Source: a virus
Direction: 5' to 3' (one strand)
Virus record (IMG/VR): IMGVR_UViG_3300025645_000600
Location: 1-20,159 of that record
DNA length: 20,159 nucleotides
Shown: piece after piece, positions 1,234-19,192 of the stretch
Layout of the letters: each line of letters starts with the position of its first letter
Numbering within the stretch: the first letter of the stretch is position 1
Position numbers and translations under genes: made by a program
Notes under the pieces: model-generated
What the model saw: the letters and a program-made list of their open reading frames with translations, nothing else
Database searches by the model: none
What the model was told of the DNA's origin: nothing

Positions 1234-3003
1234 TTATCCCTCACACGCTAAACAAGCGCCTTCGTCTATACTATCAAACATATACTGTCTTAGTGCTTCG
1301 TCAGATACTGTCTCAGCTCGCTTCATTGCTTCACTACGTAGATAATACATAGTTTTTACACCTTGCTTCCATGCCATCATATGAATAGCGTGTAGCTCCT
1401 GCTTGGAAACGTTTGCAGGGAAAAATACATTTAACGATTGACTCTGGCAAATATGCTTCTGTCGATCTCCAGCAAGCTCAATAACCCATCTCTGGTCTAT
1501 TTCCACCGCTGTCTTAAACACATCTTTAGTGTATTCATCCAGAAAATCAAGGTGTTGTACACTACCGCCATTCGTAATAATACTCTTCCAAACTTCATCC
1601 GTATTTTGATCAATCTCATCGAGAGCGTGTTCCAAATACTCATTTTTAAGAAGGCTTGAACCACTCTTTGTCTTCTGAGTGAACGCATTAGCTCGATAGG
1701 GCTCAATACTAGGACTCGTATTCCCACAAATAATGCTAGAAGAAGCATTAGGGGCAACAGCAAGAAGATGAGCGTTGCGAACACCCGAACCGACTCCATC
1801 AGGGCACTCCCCTCTTTCTGTTGCAAGTTGTCTTGTTGCACGTACTGCCTCCGCCTTAATTCGTGTAAACATTCTATTATTAGCACCTTTTGCAAGGACG
1901 CTCTCAAACGGAATGTTATGCCGCTGAAGATAGGCGTGGAATCCCATAGCACCCAGGCCAATACTTCTTTCTCTTTCTGCACTTAACTTAGCTCGGTAAA
2001 GCTCGTCGGGTGCGTTTGCTATAAAGAATGTGAGAACATTATCTAACATTCTTACAAGATCAGGAATAAACATATCATCGTCTTTCCACTCATCATACTC
2101 TTCCAGGTTTACACTTGACAAACAACATACTGCTGTTCTATCTGTAGTGGTTGCAAGAGTAATTTCAGAGCAAAGATTCGAATGGTGTACTTGTAATCCC
2201 AAATCTTTCTGAAATTGTGGTAAAGCTGCCTGAACTGTATCTTTAAACATAATATACGGCTCACCAGTTTCAACACGATTCTGTACCAACTTCACCCAAA
2301 GAGTTTTAGCTGAAACAGTTTTTACTACTTTCTTACTGTGTGGGTCTACTAATTCCCATGAATCGTCAAAGCCTTCTATACGAGTGGCTTGTTCAATTAG
2401 CTCCATGAACTCATCTGGGATAACAACAGCATGATGCAAATTAGTAGATTTTCTGTTAACATCGCCCCCAGTTGGTTTACGAATATCAAGGAACTCTTCA
2501 ATCTCTGGGTGAGATATATCCAAATATGCTGCATAACTACCTCGTCTTGTTACACCTTGTGAAAAAGCAAGCATTTCCGCATCCACTACTTTTAGGAATG
2601 GGATTACTCCAGTACTCTCTGACCCCGCTGAGGTTTTACTGCCTACAGAACGAATATCATTCCAGCAGCCACCAATACCGCCCCCAACAGAAGAAAGAAA
2701 AGCATTTTCTGTATAATGTCCAGTAATTCCTGCACGACTATCCTCCGCATAGTTTAAAAAACAACTAATAGGCATACCACGAGAGGTACCTCCATTAGTT
2801 AAAATAGGCGTAGAGAACATAAACCATAACTTACTTGCATAGTCATACAATCTCTGCGCGTGTGCCTCGTCGTCTGCAAAAGTTCTTGCAGCCCGCGCAA
2901 AGGCGTCTTGAGGAGATTTTTCTCCGTTTACCAAATATCTATCTTCGAGAGTTTTTATACTGAACTCTGATAGATATCTATCCCTTTTATAATTAAGCTG
3001 CAT
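1234..3003 (-). CDS. nrdA: Class Ia ribonucleoside-diphosphate reductase, alpha (catalytic) subunit, short form
   Basis: NrdA reduces ribonucleoside diphosphates to deoxy forms with NrdB. Visible are the active-site pair C81 (PISCFLN) and C293 (AVCCLSS), the N276-C278-E280 triad in SNLCSEI carrying the thiyl-radical cysteine, the radical-path tyrosines Y553-Y554 (KTMYYLR), and a C-terminal CLAC (C584, C587) that would accept electrons from thioredoxin or glutaredoxin. At 589 aa it is well short of E. coli NrdA (about 760). The N-terminus has no room for the roughly 90-residue ATP-cone, so dATP activity inhibition is probably absent, as in many phage enzymes. The ATG has AGGAG 10 nt upstream and overlaps the end of the flap endonuclease gene by 11 nt. 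The nrdB gene follows one base after the stop. Confidence 0.97.
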   Translation of the reverse strand: MQLNYKRDRYLSEFSIKTLEDRYLVNGEKSPQDAFARAARTFADDEAHAQRLYDYASKLWFMFSTPILTNGGTSRGMPISCFLNYAEDSRAGITGHYTENAFLSSVGGGIGGCWNDIRSVGSKTSAGSESTGVIPFLKVVDAEMLAFSQGVTRRGSYAAYLDISHPEIEEFLDIRKPTGGDVNRKSTNLHHAVVIPDEFMELIEQATRIEGFDDSWELVDPHSKKVVKTVSAKTLWVKLVQNRVETGEPYIMFKDTVQAALPQFQKDLGLQVHHSNLCSEITLATTTDRTAVCCLSSVNLEEYDEWKDDDMFIPDLVRMLDNVLTFFIANAPDELYRAKLSAERERSIGLGAMGFHAYLQRHNIPFESVLAKGANNRMFTRIKAEAVRATRQLATERGECPDGVGSGVRNAHLLAVAPNASSSIICGNTSPSIEPYRANAFTQKTKSGSSLLKNEYLEHALDEIDQNTDEVWKSIITNGGSVQHLDFLDEYTKDVFKTAVEIDQRWVIELAGDRQKHICQSQSLNVFFPANVSKQELHAIHMMAWKQGVKTMYYLRSEAMKRAETVSDEALRQYMFDSIDEGACLACEG

Positions 3004-3832
3004 TTAACATTATCTCCTGAAGTTCAACCAAATTGGCTGAGCCGATTGCGTCATCGCAATATGTTACTAAATCCATTAACTCATAGTTCATGAGAAGTAC
3101 GTGAGCATTCGCATTAAGTTCTTGAATATATTTATACTTACCATCTATAGGTAAGGTGTTGTAGATTGTTAGCGCATCTCCGTACTGCTCTATGAGCTGC
3201 TGTGCACGCTTCGGGCCTACTCCGTTTATTCCAGGAACATTATCACCCTTATCGCCTGTTAGACACTTAAAGGATATATAATCTTCTGGAGATACATCAT
3301 AGTGATCATACCAGTTATCTATAGTTACTTCTTTACGAGTAACATATGAGAACCTACTAACATCTTCTTGTATTAATAAGTCCCAATCTCGGTCACTTGA
3401 TACTAACCACATTTTGTCGAAACCATACTCTTTCTTTCGTTTTACAAGATGGGCAGCAAGATCATCTGCCTCTACATTTTGAAAACGTAATACTATGTAT
3501 CTTTCAGACAACAACTCAAGAGTTGCTTCATACTCGTCAAAAAAGTCTATAAAAGCCTGCTTTTCTGCTTCTGTCTGCTCTGCGTATTTATCTTTTCGAT
3601 TCTGCTTATACTCTGGAAGTATCGCTTTTCTGTAGCGAGATGATCCAAGATCTGCAGTAATTACTATTCTACCACACTTATAAGATGCGGCTAAAGACTG
3701 GACAGTTTGAAGATAATCATTACGAAAATCGGTTCTTCCTGCGTGCTTCCATCGAAAAGCTAAGTTAAGGGCATCTACTACTAAGGTATTGCCTGCGTTA
3801 CTCTTTGTTTGTTCTGCGAAACTAAAAGCCAC
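2993..3832 (-). CDS. Flap endonuclease / 5'-3' exonuclease (T5 D15 / PolA 5'-nuclease family)
   Basis: The 279-aa protein removes RNA primers and 5' flaps, complementing a phage polymerase that lacks its own 5' nuclease domain. The order of motifs is that of the FEN family: D20 (VVDALN), D61 and the RKAILPEYKQNR helical-arch segment (68-79), E121-D123-D124 (VEADD), D147 and D149 (SSDRD), then D194 and D197 in TGDKGDNVPG, and the helix-hairpin-helix GINGVGPKRA (201-210). The acidic residues for two metal sites are therefore all in place. Translation probably starts at a GTG at 3832 with GGAG 7 nt upstream, overlapping the resolvase stop by 11 nt. It sits between the resolvase-like gene and nrdA in one operon. 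Confidence 0.93.
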   Translation of the reverse strand: MAFSFAEQTKSNAGNTLVVDALNLAFRWKHAGRTDFRNDYLQTVQSLAASYKCGRIVITADLGSSRYRKAILPEYKQNRKDKYAEQTEAEKQAFIDFFDEYEATLELLSERYIVLRFQNVEADDLAAHLVKRKKEYGFDKMWLVSSDRDWDLLIQEDVSRFSYVTRKEVTIDNWYDHYDVSPEDYISFKCLTGDKGDNVPGINGVGPKRAQQLIEQYGDALTIYNTLPIDGKYKYIQELNANAHVLLMNYELMDLVTYCDDAIGSANLVELQEIMLNAA

Positions 3833-10648: not shown

Positions 10649-12911
10649 ACATCTTCTCGAATTTACCCATAGAATAGTCTTCTCCTATCTCAAAGTCGCA
10701 CCCTACTGGGACACCTGGAATAGAAATACCTCGATCCATCTGAATAAAGTTCTGTAGGGTTTCTACATATGAGTCTACTTCTTCATCTGGTACTTCGGCG
10801 AGAATCGAGTCATGTACCAGTGCAAAGATGCGTGCTTTAGATTTTTTAGCCTTCAAATGCTCACTCATGTCTATTGCGCCTAATAAGTTAATATCAGAAG
10901 CAGCAGACTGCACCAGAAAGTTAAGACCAGACCTAATGCTATGGCTCTTGATACCCGCGTCTGTCGATCCAACATTTGGTAATCTCCTTTTTCGACCGAA
11001 ATAACTATAAATGAACCCGTTTTGGGCAATAAACTTTTGGTTCTCTTCAATCCAAGATTTTAACTTGTGAAACTCTCCAAAATATTCATTAATTACTTCT
11101 GTCGCTTCTTGTGGGCTAAAATATTTGCCCGAGTCCTTGGTTACTTGTTCGCTGATCTTCTTCGGCCCAGCTCCGTACATGATACCAAATGTTACTGCTT
11201 TTGCAGCCTGTCGTTGTGTGCTATATAGCTCTGCTACTTCTTCTGCTTCACAGGGTAGTTTAAATACTTTCTTTGCAATCTGTGAGTGAAAGTTTCCTCC
11301 CGCACGGAATACATCCATAAGGGCTTTATCTTTTGCAAGAACAGCAGCAACATATACTTCTGCTGTTGTTAAATCCATTGCTACAATTTTATGCCCCGGA
11401 GCAGCTTTGATACAACCTTTTACAATTGGGTTATCACGAGGCAGCTGCTGCATATTAAGTTTACCACTAGAGCTAAGACGACCGCTAGTAGTACTATGGA
11501 GATTAAAACCTGTACGTAAGCGAGAATCTCTATCCAATTGTGGAATGATTTTGTCCAGATAAGTATTTTTAATCTTTGATTTTTGTCGGATAGATAAGAT
11601 GAGTCCTGGAACTTCTGATTGCTCCGCCAGTTCTCCAAGTACTTCCGCATCTGTAGAATTCGCGCCTGTACCAGTCTTTTTTCCAGTAGGTTTGAGACCA
11701 ATGAAATCAAATAATAAACTACGAAGCTGCATAGTACTATTAGGATTAAAGTCTTTTCCATTAATTTGCTCAAATTTAGAGATTGCCGGATGCTCGTAGA
11801 GTTTTGCTACGGCTGCGTCAATATCTTCTTGCATTAATCGCTGTGAAATTACTAATCTATCTTTATCAAAAGGTACACCATTGTCTTGTACGTCTGTTAA
11901 GAATCTGCAACCAGGTATGAGAATATTCTCATAAACAGATTTAAGTTTTACATTCTTCTTAATTGCAATAAACTTCTCGTAAATAAGTAGAGTACATACT
12001 GCATCTAAAGCTGCGTATGTTTTCATAATCTCAAAAGGGATCAAATCCCAAGTGAAATCACCTTTTAGCATACCATGCTCTTTTCTATACTTATCCATCC
12101 AATCATACATTGGCTTCTCATAGTCGCCATAGGGAGTAAAGTGCATTGATAGTTGCTTTAGACCATGCCCTCCGGGATTCTCGTCTATGAGATAATGGAG
12201 CAACATTGTGTCTTCGAAGCGAGGAAACTTAAAGTTGAAGTGGTACTCAAAAAACGCCAAGTCAAACTTAGCATTATGAAATACTACTATCTTTTTATCG
12301 AACAGCGTCTGTAGTAGCTCTTCTGTAGTCTCATCAAAGCACTCTGTATTAATATACACACCTTTGTGTGGCTCGTAAGAAAGAGAGATTCCTAAGATAT
12401 GGCCATCGCGTGGGTATAAACCTGTGGTTTCCGAGTCAAGTGCAATGTATGGAAGAGGTGCATCAATTGCTGCTTGAATATAAGCATTGCATTGTGCTGT
12501 ATCTTCGATACCATAGCAATCCTCTTCAGAGACTACTACATCTACTGCTTCGCCTTTAATATGGCTAATGATTGCATCACGGGACTTTTCCCAAGTAGGG
12601 CGAGCCTCTGGTTTAAACGCAAGCATTGCAGGATTAATAACAGGCAAGAATTTATCTTCCACTTTCTTGCCAGAATATTCTGTAATTGAATTAATTTTAG
12701 TAAAGTACTTGAGTGCATCACTACCTACGAGGATAATCCAATCGTAGGCGTCAATATCAACCTGGATATCGCAATCGCGCTTTAATACTTTTTTGATATT
12801 AGGGTCAGAGCATAACTGAAATTGATCAAATTGAAACTCATGATCAAACTCTGATTTAAAATTAGTCTTACTTATCTTAGTCTCTATTAGAGCGACTCTT
12901 GGGCTCGTCAT
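10632..12911 (-). CDS. Family A DNA polymerase with 3'-5' exonuclease
   Basis: The phage replicative polymerase, 759 aa. Proofreading domain: Exo I D159 and E161 (LDSETTG), Exo II D217 (FHNAKFD), Exo III Y299 and D303 (YAALD). Polymerase domain: TSGRLSS at 475-481, motif A with D513 and E518 (MDLTTAEVY), motif B with R567, K571, F575 and Y579 (RQAAKAVTFGIMYG), N664 and Q668 (NFLVQSAAS), motif C H700-D701-S702. F575 is the position called 762 in E. coli Pol I. There is no 5' nuclease domain; that job falls to the separate flap endonuclease gene. The N-terminal 150 residues are a phage-specific extension. Motif A and motif C are unusual (see findings). The ATG has GAGG 5 nt upstream, 8 nt after the primase stop. 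Confidence 0.96.
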   Translation of the reverse strand: MTSPRVALIETKISKTNFKSEFDHEFQFDQFQLCSDPNIKKVLKRDCDIQVDIDAYDWIILVGSDALKYFTKINSITEYSGKKVEDKFLPVINPAMLAFKPEARPTWEKSRDAIISHIKGEAVDVVVSEEDCYGIEDTAQCNAYIQAAIDAPLPYIALDSETTGLYPRDGHILGISLSYEPHKGVYINTECFDETTEELLQTLFDKKIVVFHNAKFDLAFFEYHFNFKFPRFEDTMLLHYLIDENPGGHGLKQLSMHFTPYGDYEKPMYDWMDKYRKEHGMLKGDFTWDLIPFEIMKTYAALDAVCTLLIYEKFIAIKKNVKLKSVYENILIPGCRFLTDVQDNGVPFDKDRLVISQRLMQEDIDAAVAKLYEHPAISKFEQINGKDFNPNSTMQLRSLLFDFIGLKPTGKKTGTGANSTDAEVLGELAEQSEVPGLILSIRQKSKIKNTYLDKIIPQLDRDSRLRTGFNLHSTTSGRLSSSGKLNMQQLPRDNPIVKGCIKAAPGHKIVAMDLTTAEVYVAAVLAKDKALMDVFRAGGNFHSQIAKKVFKLPCEAEEVAELYSTQRQAAKAVTFGIMYGAGPKKISEQVTKDSGKYFSPQEATEVINEYFGEFHKLKSWIEENQKFIAQNGFIYSYFGRKRRLPNVGSTDAGIKSHSIRSGLNFLVQSAASDINLLGAIDMSEHLKAKKSKARIFALVHDSILAEVPDEEVDSYVETLQNFIQMDRGISIPGVPVGCDFEIGEDYSMGKFEKMYGNYL

Positions 12912-14094: not shown

Positions 14095-15444
14095 TTAAAT
14101 ATCATGGATATCTTCACCAGTTTGATGGGAAGAGTCCTCTCGCTCTTGGGGAGTGAGGGCAGACTCTGGGCCAATCTTTAGAGAGTCCCAATCTACTGTT
14201 GAAGTAAACGAAGTCATAGCTCCGTTACGCATTTTCACGCAGTTAAGTGTAATACAATTATCTTCGTGATCCCAGGTTTCAAGTGTGTATGCAGCGTCTG
14301 CCGCATCAAGAATACCTTTTGCGAAACGTGCTTCACCCGTAGCATCTGTTTGATATGGTGAGAATACAGTACAATCATATTCTTGTGCCATAGACTTCAA
14401 TGCTTTACTAACCTCGATCTGTTCTGTCCAGTCATATTGACCTCCGCGAGAAGGTAGGTTAGAGCGTTTTACTTGGTTTATATAGTCGACCACGATAATG
14501 CCAACATTCAATGCTTTTACTTTTTTATCAAGCTCGGCACGAATCTTAGCCAGTGTAAGAGACGGATCATAGACTACATCTAATTGCTGAGTCGGGAGAA
14601 GCTCGCAAGTAGTTTTTAATCTATGGTGAAACTTAGCAAAGTCGCGGTCTTCTCTATACTCTTTTAGACGCTCTTGCCCATTGACGAAACGACTGGCCCA
14701 CCAACCGGCTACCTTTTCCCACTCTACCACACTAAGATTTTTAGTGCGGAGTCGTGAGAAAGGTACTCCAGTTGCAATAGAACAACATCGTTGGAGGATA
14801 TTTCTGCTATCCATTTCGATAGTGAAGTAGATAGCAGATTTACCACTGTTGAAAACACTGTTGGCAATGTTTGCACAAATTACAGATTTACCAGCCCCTC
14901 TTTTTCCTCCCACCATAACCAAGTCTCTTGGAGAGAATTGAATAGAGTGGTCGTACTCAGCATTAAGCCCGAGAGGTACGTATTTCTCTAAGTCCTCTTC
15001 TGGCTCGAACAGTTCAATACCTTGCATACTTTCCTGTGGATCTTCTAAATCAACCTTCCCTTCAATGTCAAGGACAATCTGGTGAAGGTGATCTACCGAC
15101 TCTTGTGCATCTTCAAAAGCTACACTGTTGTCGATATAATCTTCGAGCGAGTTGAGTATCTCTTTTTGAGTATATTCGTTCTTGAGATACTGTAAGAGCA
15201 TAAACGCATCAGCATCAACAACGACACTTTCAACGGCATATAACTTCTCACGAGTAGCACTATCACGAATCTCAAACTTGAGATCATCGAACGTGGGCAT
15301 TTTATGATAGGTTTCGCAGTGCTTTTCAATTACTTTATAAAGGCTATGGTACTCAGTAGGCAAATAATGCTTATGAGTAACGCTCCAGGTCTGAAAGTCC
15401 TGAAGTGTTAGCACTTTATTAATTAATGCACTTGCAATGTTAAT
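14095..15444 (-). CDS. DnaB-like replicative helicase (RecA-fold), proposed ATT start
   Basis: The fork helicase of the phage. Numbering from the GTG at 15414: an N-terminal domain (1-140) with LPTEYHSLYKVIEKH, Walker A GGKRGAGKS (169-177), catalytic E200 (YFTIEM), Walker B IIVVDY (D310), then the QIEVSKALKSMAQEYDC region and QTDATGEARFAKG, as in DnaB/T7 gp4 helicases. The GTG has no ribosome site. In the same frame, GGGAG (15456-15452) sits exactly 7 nt before an ATT at 15444-15442, giving 449 aa, so I choose ATT. The conservative alternative is GTG at 15414 (439 aa). No promoter is seen between this gene and the hairpin at 15473-15501, so it depends on readthrough from the ligase-regulator unit. 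Family assignment is firm and the start is less certain. Confidence 0.9.
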   Translation of the reverse strand: MNIASALINKVLTLQDFQTWSVTHKHYLPTEYHSLYKVIEKHCETYHKMPTFDDLKFEIRDSATREKLYAVESVVVDADAFMLLQYLKNEYTQKEILNSLEDYIDNSVAFEDAQESVDHLHQIVLDIEGKVDLEDPQESMQGIELFEPEEDLEKYVPLGLNAEYDHSIQFSPRDLVMVGGKRGAGKSVICANIANSVFNSGKSAIYFTIEMDSRNILQRCCSIATGVPFSRLRTKNLSVVEWEKVAGWWASRFVNGQERLKEYREDRDFAKFHHRLKTTCELLPTQQLDVVYDPSLTLAKIRAELDKKVKALNVGIIVVDYINQVKRSNLPSRGGQYDWTEQIEVSKALKSMAQEYDCTVFSPYQTDATGEARFAKGILDAADAAYTLETWDHEDNCITLNCVKMRNGAMTSFTSTVDWDSLKIGPESALTPQEREDSSHQTGEDIHDI

Positions 15445-15472
15445 CGTAATTCTCCCAAATTCGATGTAAATA

Positions 15473-15501
15473 ATAGCCGTTGAGCGGAACCCAACGGCTA
15501 T
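15473..15501 (-). terminator. Hairpin terminator or attenuator after the four-repeat protein gene
   Basis: A perfect 10-bp inverted repeat (ATAGCCGTTG / CAACGGCTAT) with a 9-nt loop lies 24 nt after the stop of the 242-aa gene. The following bases on the minus strand are only moderately U-rich (TATTTAC), so termination is probably partial. The helicase gene downstream has no visible promoter of its own, so this hairpin may set its level by readthrough. The rest of the 15445-15525 gap holds only the helicase ribosome site GGGAG. Confidence 0.75.
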
Positions 15502-15525
15502 CAGGTTGTCTAATAACTACTGGGA

Positions 15526-16254
15526 TTAACCGGCAGCTTTAGCACTCTTAGCTGCACCATCGTAGTCAGCAGCGCTGATACCACGACGAGTTAGCATAGT
15601 TTTAACGCCACGAGCAGTTTTGCCAATAGCTTCAGCAATAGCTTCAACAGTCATGTCACTGATGTTAGTCAGTGTAGCCAAAGGGTCTTCTTTGGTAGCA
15701 GACTGAGTGAACTCTTGCTTAGGGATAGCGCCGATCTCACCAGCACGCAGAAGGCTAAGAGCTTTACCACGTACAGAGTTGACAGAACGACCCATTGCTT
15801 CAGCAATAGCTTCAACGTAAGCACCATCTTGTACCATAGATACAAAAGTGGCTTCTTCAGCAGCAGAGTACGTGCGTACAGCTTCAACTTTAGGAGCAGG
15901 CTTAACGTGGTCAGTTAATTCCATAGACAAAATCTTGCCTTGGATAGACTTAGGAGAGAAGGCACCATCTTCAAAATGGCCAGCAATCTCAGCATAAGTA
16001 TAGTCGCCGCTGTTGTCAGTGACAAAAGCAGCAAGAGTAGCTTCTTGAGCGTCAGAAAACGCACGGGTTGCACCCGCAGAAGCCAGTTCTACATCGAAGC
16101 CCATCTTGCGCAATTTGCTAGAGATAGAACGAGTAGTAGTTTCAAGCTGCTCAGCTGCTTCCGCAACAGTAGCTTGAGAAACGGGGCTTTCGCCGCCGAC
16201 AAAGGTAGTAAGTTGAGCAGTACGCTCGTCAGTCCACTTAGGTAGAGTTGACAT
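15526..16254 (-). CDS. 242-aa protein with four HTH/SANT-like repeats, putative DNA-binding regulator
   Basis: Four related units can be traced: about 5-55 (KWTDERTAQL to SSKLRKMGF), 65-118 (AFSDAQEATL to QGKILSMEL), 128-172 (TYSAAEEATF to RGKALSLLR) and 190-231 (TVEAIAEAI to VKTMLTRRGI). Each shows an aromatic-S/T-D/A start, an AEAxG-like helix and an S-(V/I)-x-(G/S)-K third helix, as in SANT/Myb or helix-turn-helix folds. Tandem units suggest cooperative binding to double-stranded DNA. The gene is rich in Ala codons. I use the ATG at 16254, with GGAG 9 nt upstream, not the TTG at 16269. It follows ligase half 2 after 4 nt and ends at a hairpin. In T5, as I recall, the DNA-binding regulator D5 has a similar place before the D6 helicase, so an analogous role is possible (inference). 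Confidence 0.8.
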   Translation of the reverse strand: MSTLPKWTDERTAQLTTFVGGESPVSQATVAEAAEQLETTTRSISSKLRKMGFDVELASAGATRAFSDAQEATLAAFVTDNSGDYTYAEIAGHFEDGAFSPKSIQGKILSMELTDHVKPAPKVEAVRTYSAAEEATFVSMVQDGAYVEAIAEAMGRSVNSVRGKALSLLRAGEIGAIPKQEFTQSATKEDPLATLTNISDMTVEAIAEAIGKTARGVKTMLTRRGISAADYDGAAKSAKAAG

Positions 16255-18067: not shown

Positions 18068-18370
18068 TTATTTATATAAGTCGTGAATTAAATCTGAAAA
18101 ATGTTCTTCAATAAGTTCCTTTGATTCTGCCAGGGAAAGTATCTCTACCAACCCTACAAACAGCTCTCTGGAATTACTAAGGTCAAGTGGCATTGCTATC
18201 CCTTCCGGTGTAGGCTTCCACTCTTCTTCGAAGTCCATATAATATTTACGAAGGTGGATGTACTCTACTCCTCGAAAAGTATTAATAGTAAGTCTTACTT
18301 GAATTTCTTTTTCAGTGTCGTAATGTATGATCTTTGAGTAGGCTTCTGGTGCTTCATGAAGCTCTATCAT
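18068..18370 (-). CDS. PC4-like (p15 coactivator fold) single-stranded DNA-binding protein
   Basis: A 100-aa protein whose core (about 22-80) matches the PC4/YdbC-like fold: VRLTINTFRGVEYIHLRKYY (residues 25-44), then a loop, WKPTPEGIAMPLD (51-63) and a C-terminal helix ELFVGLVEILSLAE (69-82). The order beta-sheet with FRG-x-YI-x-LRKYY, then KPT-x-GI, then helix is diagnostic of PC4 homologues, which dimerise and bind single-stranded or unpaired DNA. T5 is known to encode a PC4 homologue linked to recombination-dependent replication, which agrees with the SbcCD-like and resolvase genes here. The ATG overlaps the preceding TGA by 4 nt (ATGA). The gene ends just before the ligase promoter. Confidence 0.82.
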   Translation of the reverse strand: MIELHEAPEAYSKIIHYDTEKEIQVRLTINTFRGVEYIHLRKYYMDFEEEWKPTPEGIAMPLDLSNSRELFVGLVEILSLAESKELIEEHFSDLIHDLYK

Positions 18371-18639
18371 CGCCGACCTTCATTCTTCAATATCGAAGAT
18401 AGGGGAACAACGCTTGATACATTACTCGGCCTTAATAGTCGATAAGAGTCAGTATCCCAACAAAAGAACAGAAGGGTATCTTCGGTTTCTTTAGCTCGAT
18501 TCTTCTTACCTTGTATGTAAGGTGTAGTAAAGTCTAAAGTACAAACATTGTACTTCAACTTTTTTGACTGCTCACTACGATAAGTAATGACGGCATCGCC
18601 ATAGTCGCGCACTAACTGTGCCAGTTCTTGCTTTTTCAC
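18367..18639 (-). CDS. 90-aa protein of unknown function paired with the PC4-like gene
   Basis: Not recognised. Hydrophobic beta-like segments (AVITYRS, KYNVCTLDFTT, DTLLFFCWDTDSYRLL) end in SVVPLSSIL, consistent with a small compact domain without catalytic signature. The start is set at the GTG at 18639 because AAAGGAG lies 5 nt before it; the TTG at 18666 would put that site inside the gene. The PC4-like ATG overlaps its stop by 4 nt, so the two are probably coupled and may act together (inference). It is downstream of the terminator at 18711-18740, and no convincing promoter is seen in between, so it may rely on readthrough. Confidence 0.75.
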   Translation of the reverse strand: MKKQELAQLVRDYGDAVITYRSEQSKKLKYNVCTLDFTTPYIQGKKNRAKETEDTLLFFCWDTDSYRLLRPSNVSSVVPLSSILKNEGRR

Positions 18640-18751: not shown

Positions 18752-19192
18752 TTAGTCTTCGTTTGAAAGAAGGGTAGTAAAGTACTGAGCGGCTTTACCA
18801 GTCAACTTAGAGATAATCTCTTCATCAACAGCTTTACCTGCATCAGTGATTGCAGCGGTGAGAGCTTCTTGAGCTGCTGCTTTGGAGACACGAGTGCCAC
18901 CAGTAGAAGCGCCGGTAGAAGCAGCTTTTGCTGCGGGGGTCTTTTTAACATAGACGCCAGCCTTGGTTAAAATCATGCGAACACCATTTGGTGATTCGTC
19001 GAGTTCTTCTGCAATATCTTTTACGATCTCCATAGATGTTTCTGGAGTTGGTTCTGCTGCTTCATAGAGGCGTACTGCCTCTGCTTTTTTATCGTCATCC
19101 CAAGCCACTTTTCGGCTCCTTCTGTTAGGGTTTTTGTTTCCTGGGCAATCGCCCAGAGCTTTTAGTTGTTGAGTATAAAACCGGTCGCCCAA
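18752..19192 (-). CDS. 146-aa HTH/SANT-like protein with low-complexity linker, putative regulator
   Basis: The N-terminal part (RFYTQQLKALGDCPGNK, 4-20) precedes one HTH/SANT-like unit from about 30 to 84 (AWDDDKKAEAVRLYE, then IVKDIAEELDESPNGVRMILTKAGVYVKK), which resembles the repeats of the 242-aa protein. A low-complexity Ala/Thr/Gly/Ser linker (85-108) leads to a helical C-terminus (110-146). A DNA-binding regulator is the best guess. The TTG at 19192 is chosen because it lies 28 nt after the -10 box, the same distance as in three sister promoters, with GGAG 8 nt before it. A GTG at 19108 with GGAG 7 nt upstream is the alternative (118 aa). It is transcribed alone, from the promoter at 19220 to the terminator at 18711. 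Confidence 0.8.
   Translation of the reverse strand: MGDRFYTQQLKALGDCPGNKNPNRRSRKVAWDDDKKAEAVRLYEAAEPTPETSMEIVKDIAEELDESPNGVRMILTKAGVYVKKTPAAKAASTGASTGGTRVSKAAAQEALTAAITDAGKAVDEEIISKLTGKAAQYFTTLLSNED

Follow-up and report, generated by a model that had tools for sequence, protein, structure and literature searches.

A phage replicative helicase gene probably translated from an ATT codon, and recurrent ATC and ATT starts in a second phage gene family

Non-canonical start codons as such are already known. Repression by IF3 has been established for the AUU start of E. coli infC and for the GTC start of Streptomyces sigR (PMC5472188), and E. coli pcnB also begins at AUU, as cited in PMC9410913; infC, named as the sole known case in a preliminary description of the DNA analysed here, is therefore not alone. 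A survey of close genome triplets counted a single AUG-to-AUU switch among 61,358 AUG starts; among 2,468 UUG starts it counted none (PMC5622118). Within the limited literature that we searched, no relevant paper was found that deals with non-canonical starts, ATT and ATC included, in phage genes. The phage genes that compare best with ours are D6 of phage T5 and its Demerecviridae counterparts, which encode a homologous helicase of about 30% identity. The helicase genes of phage Eos and, probably, of T5 appear to start at TTG, likewise a weak start; the cultured relatives checked mostly have ATG, and none has ATT or GTT. The homologous T5 D6 start is probably a TTG with AAGGAG 7 nt upstream, giving M-F-N-V-Q-A. 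In the T5 record (AY543070, 68109-68168; L108:8110-8169), the annotated D6 ATG lies inside a terminator-like hairpin, and the D6 annotation is the same in GEC_vB_N5 and DT57C.

The sequence studied here, referred to as the window, is a 20,159-nt stretch of IMG/VR virus record IMGVR_UViG_3300025645_000600, a metagenomic sequence of an uncultured phage that appears to be a marine relative of T5. Megablast of the window against cultured phage records returned no match, and the best cultured helicase relatives are about 31% identical to the window helicase. The minus strand carries a replication block of the T5-like type. Profile searches underlie the names of the helicase and the D5-like regulator, while the other names in the block (ligA, ligB, primase, polymerase, PhoH, UvsW-like helicase, SbcCD, exonuclease and ribonucleotide reductase) are our reading of the sequences and the gene order. 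The helicase matches the DnaB_C profile PF03796 (E=1.5e-20, 74.1 bits) and phrog_19 (E=1.4e-46), and has a Walker A motif, GGKRGAGKS, at residues 179-187, with an invariant G-x-G-K-S core. The order D5-helicase-primase-polymerase is common to the window, T5, pVp-1 and My1, and the ligA/ligB-D5-helicase-primase-polymerase synteny of T5 D6-type helicases is found in the window. Some 80 nt lie between the end of the D5-like gene and the helicase ATT downstream of it. The terminator-like hairpin between the two genes has a comparable counterpart between the D5 and helicase genes of T5; a consensus terminator scan did not flag it, and a promoter scan of the gap gave no convincing promoter. A promoter-like TTTACA-16-TACGAT over the helicase start was set aside, as its 9 matches out of 12 are near chance expectation and it reads TACGGT in the GTT phages.

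Coordinates of the features discussed (window positions unless a contig is named)
Feature	Position	Strand	Basis
DnaB-like replicative helicase, T5 D6 homologue; 449 aa from ATT	14095..15444	-	DnaB_C PF03796, phrog_19, T5-like gene order
GTG, first standard in-frame start codon, encodes Val11	15412..15414	-	Without Shine-Dalgarno sequence; column not conserved as start; within predicted helix
Proposed start codon ATT; sister phages GTT, other relatives TTG/GTG	15442..15444	-	Column identity, Shine-Dalgarno spacing
Rival start codon ACG; Shine-Dalgarno spacing 4 nt	15445..15447	-	Invariant in clade; aligned with pVp-1, My1 and T5 start codon
Shine-Dalgarno GGGAG, 7 nt from ATT	15452..15456	-	Invariant in ATT/GTT clade; modal spacing
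33-nt hairpin then UUU, between D5-like gene and helicase; terminator-like	15471..15503	-	Region fold z-score -3.55
D5-like transcription regulator gene, ATG start, Shine-Dalgarno GGAG	15526..16254	-	phrog_323 E=8.2e-43
PHROG-624 gene	L259-L338; L126:11072-11695	- (L126)	ATC/ATT start in 29/52 distinct homologues

The arrangement given in the preliminary description, with GGGAG exactly 7 nt ahead of an ATT, an open frame behind it and no Shine-Dalgarno sequence at GTG 15414, is borne out on the minus strand. The spacer between GGGAG and ATT is AATTACG (15451-15445), and after ATT the frame reads AAC ATT GCA AGT GCA TTA ATT AAT AAA, reaches GTG 15414 and stays open until the stop at 14095. Upstream, the nearest in-frame stop is a TAG 25 codons away, which leaves 24 open codons before ATT; the window contains no in-frame ATG, GTG or TTG between this TAG and GTG 15414, so that the frame lacks a standard start as far as codon 11, and the Shine-Dalgarno sequence lies at a productive spacing.

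We compared the start with those of 80 IMG/VR helicases (75-100% identical), all of which align from the ATT residue onward in a frame that is open throughout. All 80 share the N-terminus start-N-I-A-S-A-L-(I/L), with few conservative changes (e.g. NISSAF), and none begins at LTLQDF, the position expected of a protein initiated at the GTG. The residues NIASALINK, predicted to precede the GTG-encoded residue in relatives, are thus present; the ATG that had been predicted at their head is not, its place being taken by TTG or GTG. After deduplication, the ATT column of 120 distinct homologues holds TTG (100), GTG (11), ATT (5) and GTT (4), and no ATG. Pattern scans over the collection returned 14 stretches in which the first base is not T, and each of these reads GTG; no other T-first codon, of the TNH type, was returned.

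The ATT/GTT type, searched by its coding sequence and not by its leader, comprises 12 contigs from 12 metagenome datasets with five leader haplotypes, which excludes a base-calling error. In the tree these sequences form a single clade (SH-aLRT 99%) nested among TTG phages, and ATT and GTT alternate inside it. GGGAG at 7 nt is kept in 9/9 distinct ATT/GTT homologues; together with the modal spacing given below, this places the arrangement beyond coincidence. As the contigs are metagenomic, one could also think of a damaged allele, that is a pseudogene in progress, or of an assembly error, but with this recurrence across datasets and haplotypes, and with intact, full-length helicase ORFs whose 137 variable sites in codons 41-200 are split 24/15/98 in favour of third positions, we regard such an origin as barely credible.

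The stretch ahead of the GTG evolves as coding sequence. In codons 2-10 of the clade, 1, 0 and 6 variable sites fall at first, second and third positions; variation almost confined to third positions indicates that these codons are translated. Asn2 is invariant from the window helicase through T5, My1 and pVp-1. An AlphaFold model built on a 20-sequence alignment gives residues 1-10 a pLDDT of 87 and predicts a helix over residues 3-14, so that initiation at the GTG, which encodes a residue inside this helix, would cut it. The GTG column reads GTT, GTA, GTC, ACA or ACG, and is thus unable to start, in 39/120 homologues. A protein 10 residues shorter that begins at GTG 15414 has in its favour that this is the first standard start codon in the frame; against the missing Shine-Dalgarno sequence, the helix and the coding-type variation upstream, it is very improbable.

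We consider it likely that the helicase is translated from ATT 15444, and from GTT in the sister phages, by means of the GGGAG sequence. This reading, put forward in the preliminary description, is the best supported: the codon occupies the TTG/GTG column of the relatives, the Shine-Dalgarno sequence and its spacing are equal, and the sequence downstream evolves as coding. A neighbouring codon also has to be weighed. All 16 nt preceding ATT/GTT are invariant in the clade, and conservation is therefore unable to separate ATT from the ACG one triplet upstream. Were ACG the start, itself a very rare near-cognate start one base off ATG, ATT/GTT would encode Ile or Val as residue 2, and their interchange behind a codon that is constant in all five leader haplotypes would be an ordinary one. 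ACG is moreover aligned with the helicase start codon of the distant Demerecviridae, at the head of M-I-N-V; pVp-1 and My1 have ATG-ATA-AAC/AAT and T5 probably TTG-TTT-AAC. The spacing points the other way. In ten related contigs, 7 nt is the commonest distance from GGAG to ATG (31/106), whereas 4 nt, although it precedes some genuine-looking ATG starts, accounts for 5/106. ATT/GTT is also favoured by the immediate relatives among which the clade is nested, as these carry TTG or GTG in the same column, and the remaining orthologue-supported non-standard starts in the scan described below are ATC or ATT, none ACG. Initiation at ACG thus appears unlikely, and we infer that ATT is the codon actually read; with either codon, the helicase start is non-canonical.

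The 24 open codons upstream would allow a start farther away, and in two haplotypes the hairpin contains a TTG in this frame; the frame could also be entered from another ORF by coupling or frameshifting. However, the upstream in-frame residues are not conserved, the hairpin sequence varies between haplotypes, and the end of the D5-like gene lies at the distance given above. An out-of-frame TTG ORF that runs over the Shine-Dalgarno sequence was rejected as a point of entry because a TAG interrupts it in the L109-L111 haplotype. Entry from upstream in any of these forms is accordingly a very slim prospect.

Like infC and pcnB, the window helicase, if started at ATT, combines an AUU start with a Shine-Dalgarno sequence, no standard alternative and a product plausibly needed at a limited level. 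Unlike infC, where IF3 regulates its own synthesis, it is a phage replication gene for which no product feedback is expected, and its sister phages use GTT. With its two mismatches to AUG, GTT would ordinarily be expected to initiate poorly; the two mismatches and a strong Shine-Dalgarno sequence are shared with the GTC start of sigR, a gene whose excess is harmful. sigR differs in that it encodes a cellular sigma factor and is proven by mutation, whereas the evidence for the helicase start is comparative. If the present reading is true, GUU would be a start codon unreported in the literature searched. The novelty lies in a phage replication gene with a probable ATT/GTT start and in a phage gene family, described below, in which standard and AUH start codons have replaced each other many times.

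A possible mechanism is as follows. Because the hairpin separates the two genes and the gap lacks a convincing promoter, the helicase message would probably arise by read-through past the hairpin, followed by initiation at a weak codon. Initiation at ATT would make use of the good GGGAG sequence, and fMet-tRNA would begin the protein at this codon in spite of the mismatch. The helicase would as a result be scarce compared with the D5-like regulator, whose gene lies immediately upstream, and selection may have favoured this low output. ATT/GTT might then be the most extreme form of a start that has long been weak, given that the marine relatives carry TTG or GTG and in no case ATG. By analogy with infC and sigR, host IF3 may act on this start and set its level. 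The support for throttling or IF3 control is only indirect, from the 120 distinct homologues without ATG and the hairpin ahead of the gene. In all the related contigs compared, the exonuclease (2993-3832) and g99 (18367-18639), both on the minus strand, begin with GTG, while most neighbours have ATG; as genes other than the helicase thus keep weak starts too, gene-specific start strength seems to be selected.

Orthologue comparison across ten contigs exposed a second gene with such starts. It belongs to PHROG 624, annotated as 'DNA binding protein', some relatives being annotated as pyrimidine dimer glycosylase/endonuclease V, and its ATH form occurs in 52 IMG/VR records. By comparison of its homologues, the family unambiguously uses ATC and ATT starts, and the case is arguably more striking than that of the helicase. 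Among 52 distinct homologues, the start column holds ATC (21), ATT (8), ATG (17), TTG (4) and GTG (2), with ATC/ATT placed exactly at the ATG, TTG or GTG of the others. GGAG stands at 6-7 nt in 29/29 ATC/ATT cases and in 5/17 ATG cases; for ATC/ATT against all canonical starts, Fisher's test gives p = 1.8e-6 with kinship ignored. In 14 ATC/ATT cases an in-frame stop lies just four codons upstream, and therefore little else can be the start. A TATAAT box is found 25-27 nt upstream in the ATC/ATT cases, and some TATAAT box in 48/52 homologues overall. Identical proteins stand behind ATG, ATC and TTG (L307, L308, L314), and the tree requires about 11 start-codon switches, at least seven of them forced by well-supported branches. 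Natural AUU and AUC starts in bacteria are counted as single genes; here there are about 11 switches on the tree of one gene and ATT/GTT fixed in another. Nature thus offers a set of variants with which to study the reasons for adopting a weak start and the ways of compensating for it. None of eight cultured phages checked has ATC or ATT at the PHROG-624 start, the same residue being encoded by ATG, GTG or TTG. Pseudomonas phage vB_PpuM-Amme-1 (PP496439.1, 187157-187714) contains an intact, unannotated PHROG-624-like ORF with a GTG start, and PHROG-624-like matches in Pori-4 and KoPa-5 are likewise unannotated.

To see how widespread these starts are, 205 related contigs (2.04 Mb, 2,977 ORFs) were scanned for Shine-Dalgarno-anchored non-standard starts with standard-start orthologues in the same column. 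Three families only were returned, the helicase, PHROG 624 and one g146 homologue, and the codons in all supported cases are ATC, ATT or GTT. It looks as if rare start codons had served these phages more than once as a setting for low output, one that gene finders overlook. In viral metagenomes, gene callers restricted to ATG, GTG and TTG, a restriction that has also been stressed elsewhere (PMC5472188), would place the starts of such genes wrongly or cut the genes short. A broader idea, possible but more likely wrong than right, is that in this lineage of marine T5-like phages selection has repeatedly used AUU, AUC and GUU to set the expression of a few genes of DNA metabolism, with strong Shine-Dalgarno sequences as a balance and host IF3 or the supply of initiator tRNA as the readout; a tRNA gene of initiator type is even present in one sister phage.

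Several minor observations were made in these contigs. Apart from one in sister phage G003, no tRNA gene was found in the window and the other contigs scanned. The G003 gene (L112:10749-10825, plus strand) encodes a tRNA-Met(CAU) that resembles an initiator in two respects, a U1-U72 mismatch and an anticodon stem with GGG/CCC at its foot; a phage tRNA reading AUU was dismissed, as this sole tRNA has the anticodon CAU. The g146 homologue in L346 (reverse strand, 0-based 11666-12119), a counterpart of window gene 18752-19192, has an ATC start preceded at 6 nt by AGGAG, and its orthologues have ATG, TTG or GTG there. A fourth, weaker case appears to be g164 in G003 and G010, where an ATA start overlaps the stop codon of the upstream gene (L114:13036-13527, minus strand, with an orthologue in L113 of G003) and the orthologues have ATG or GTG.
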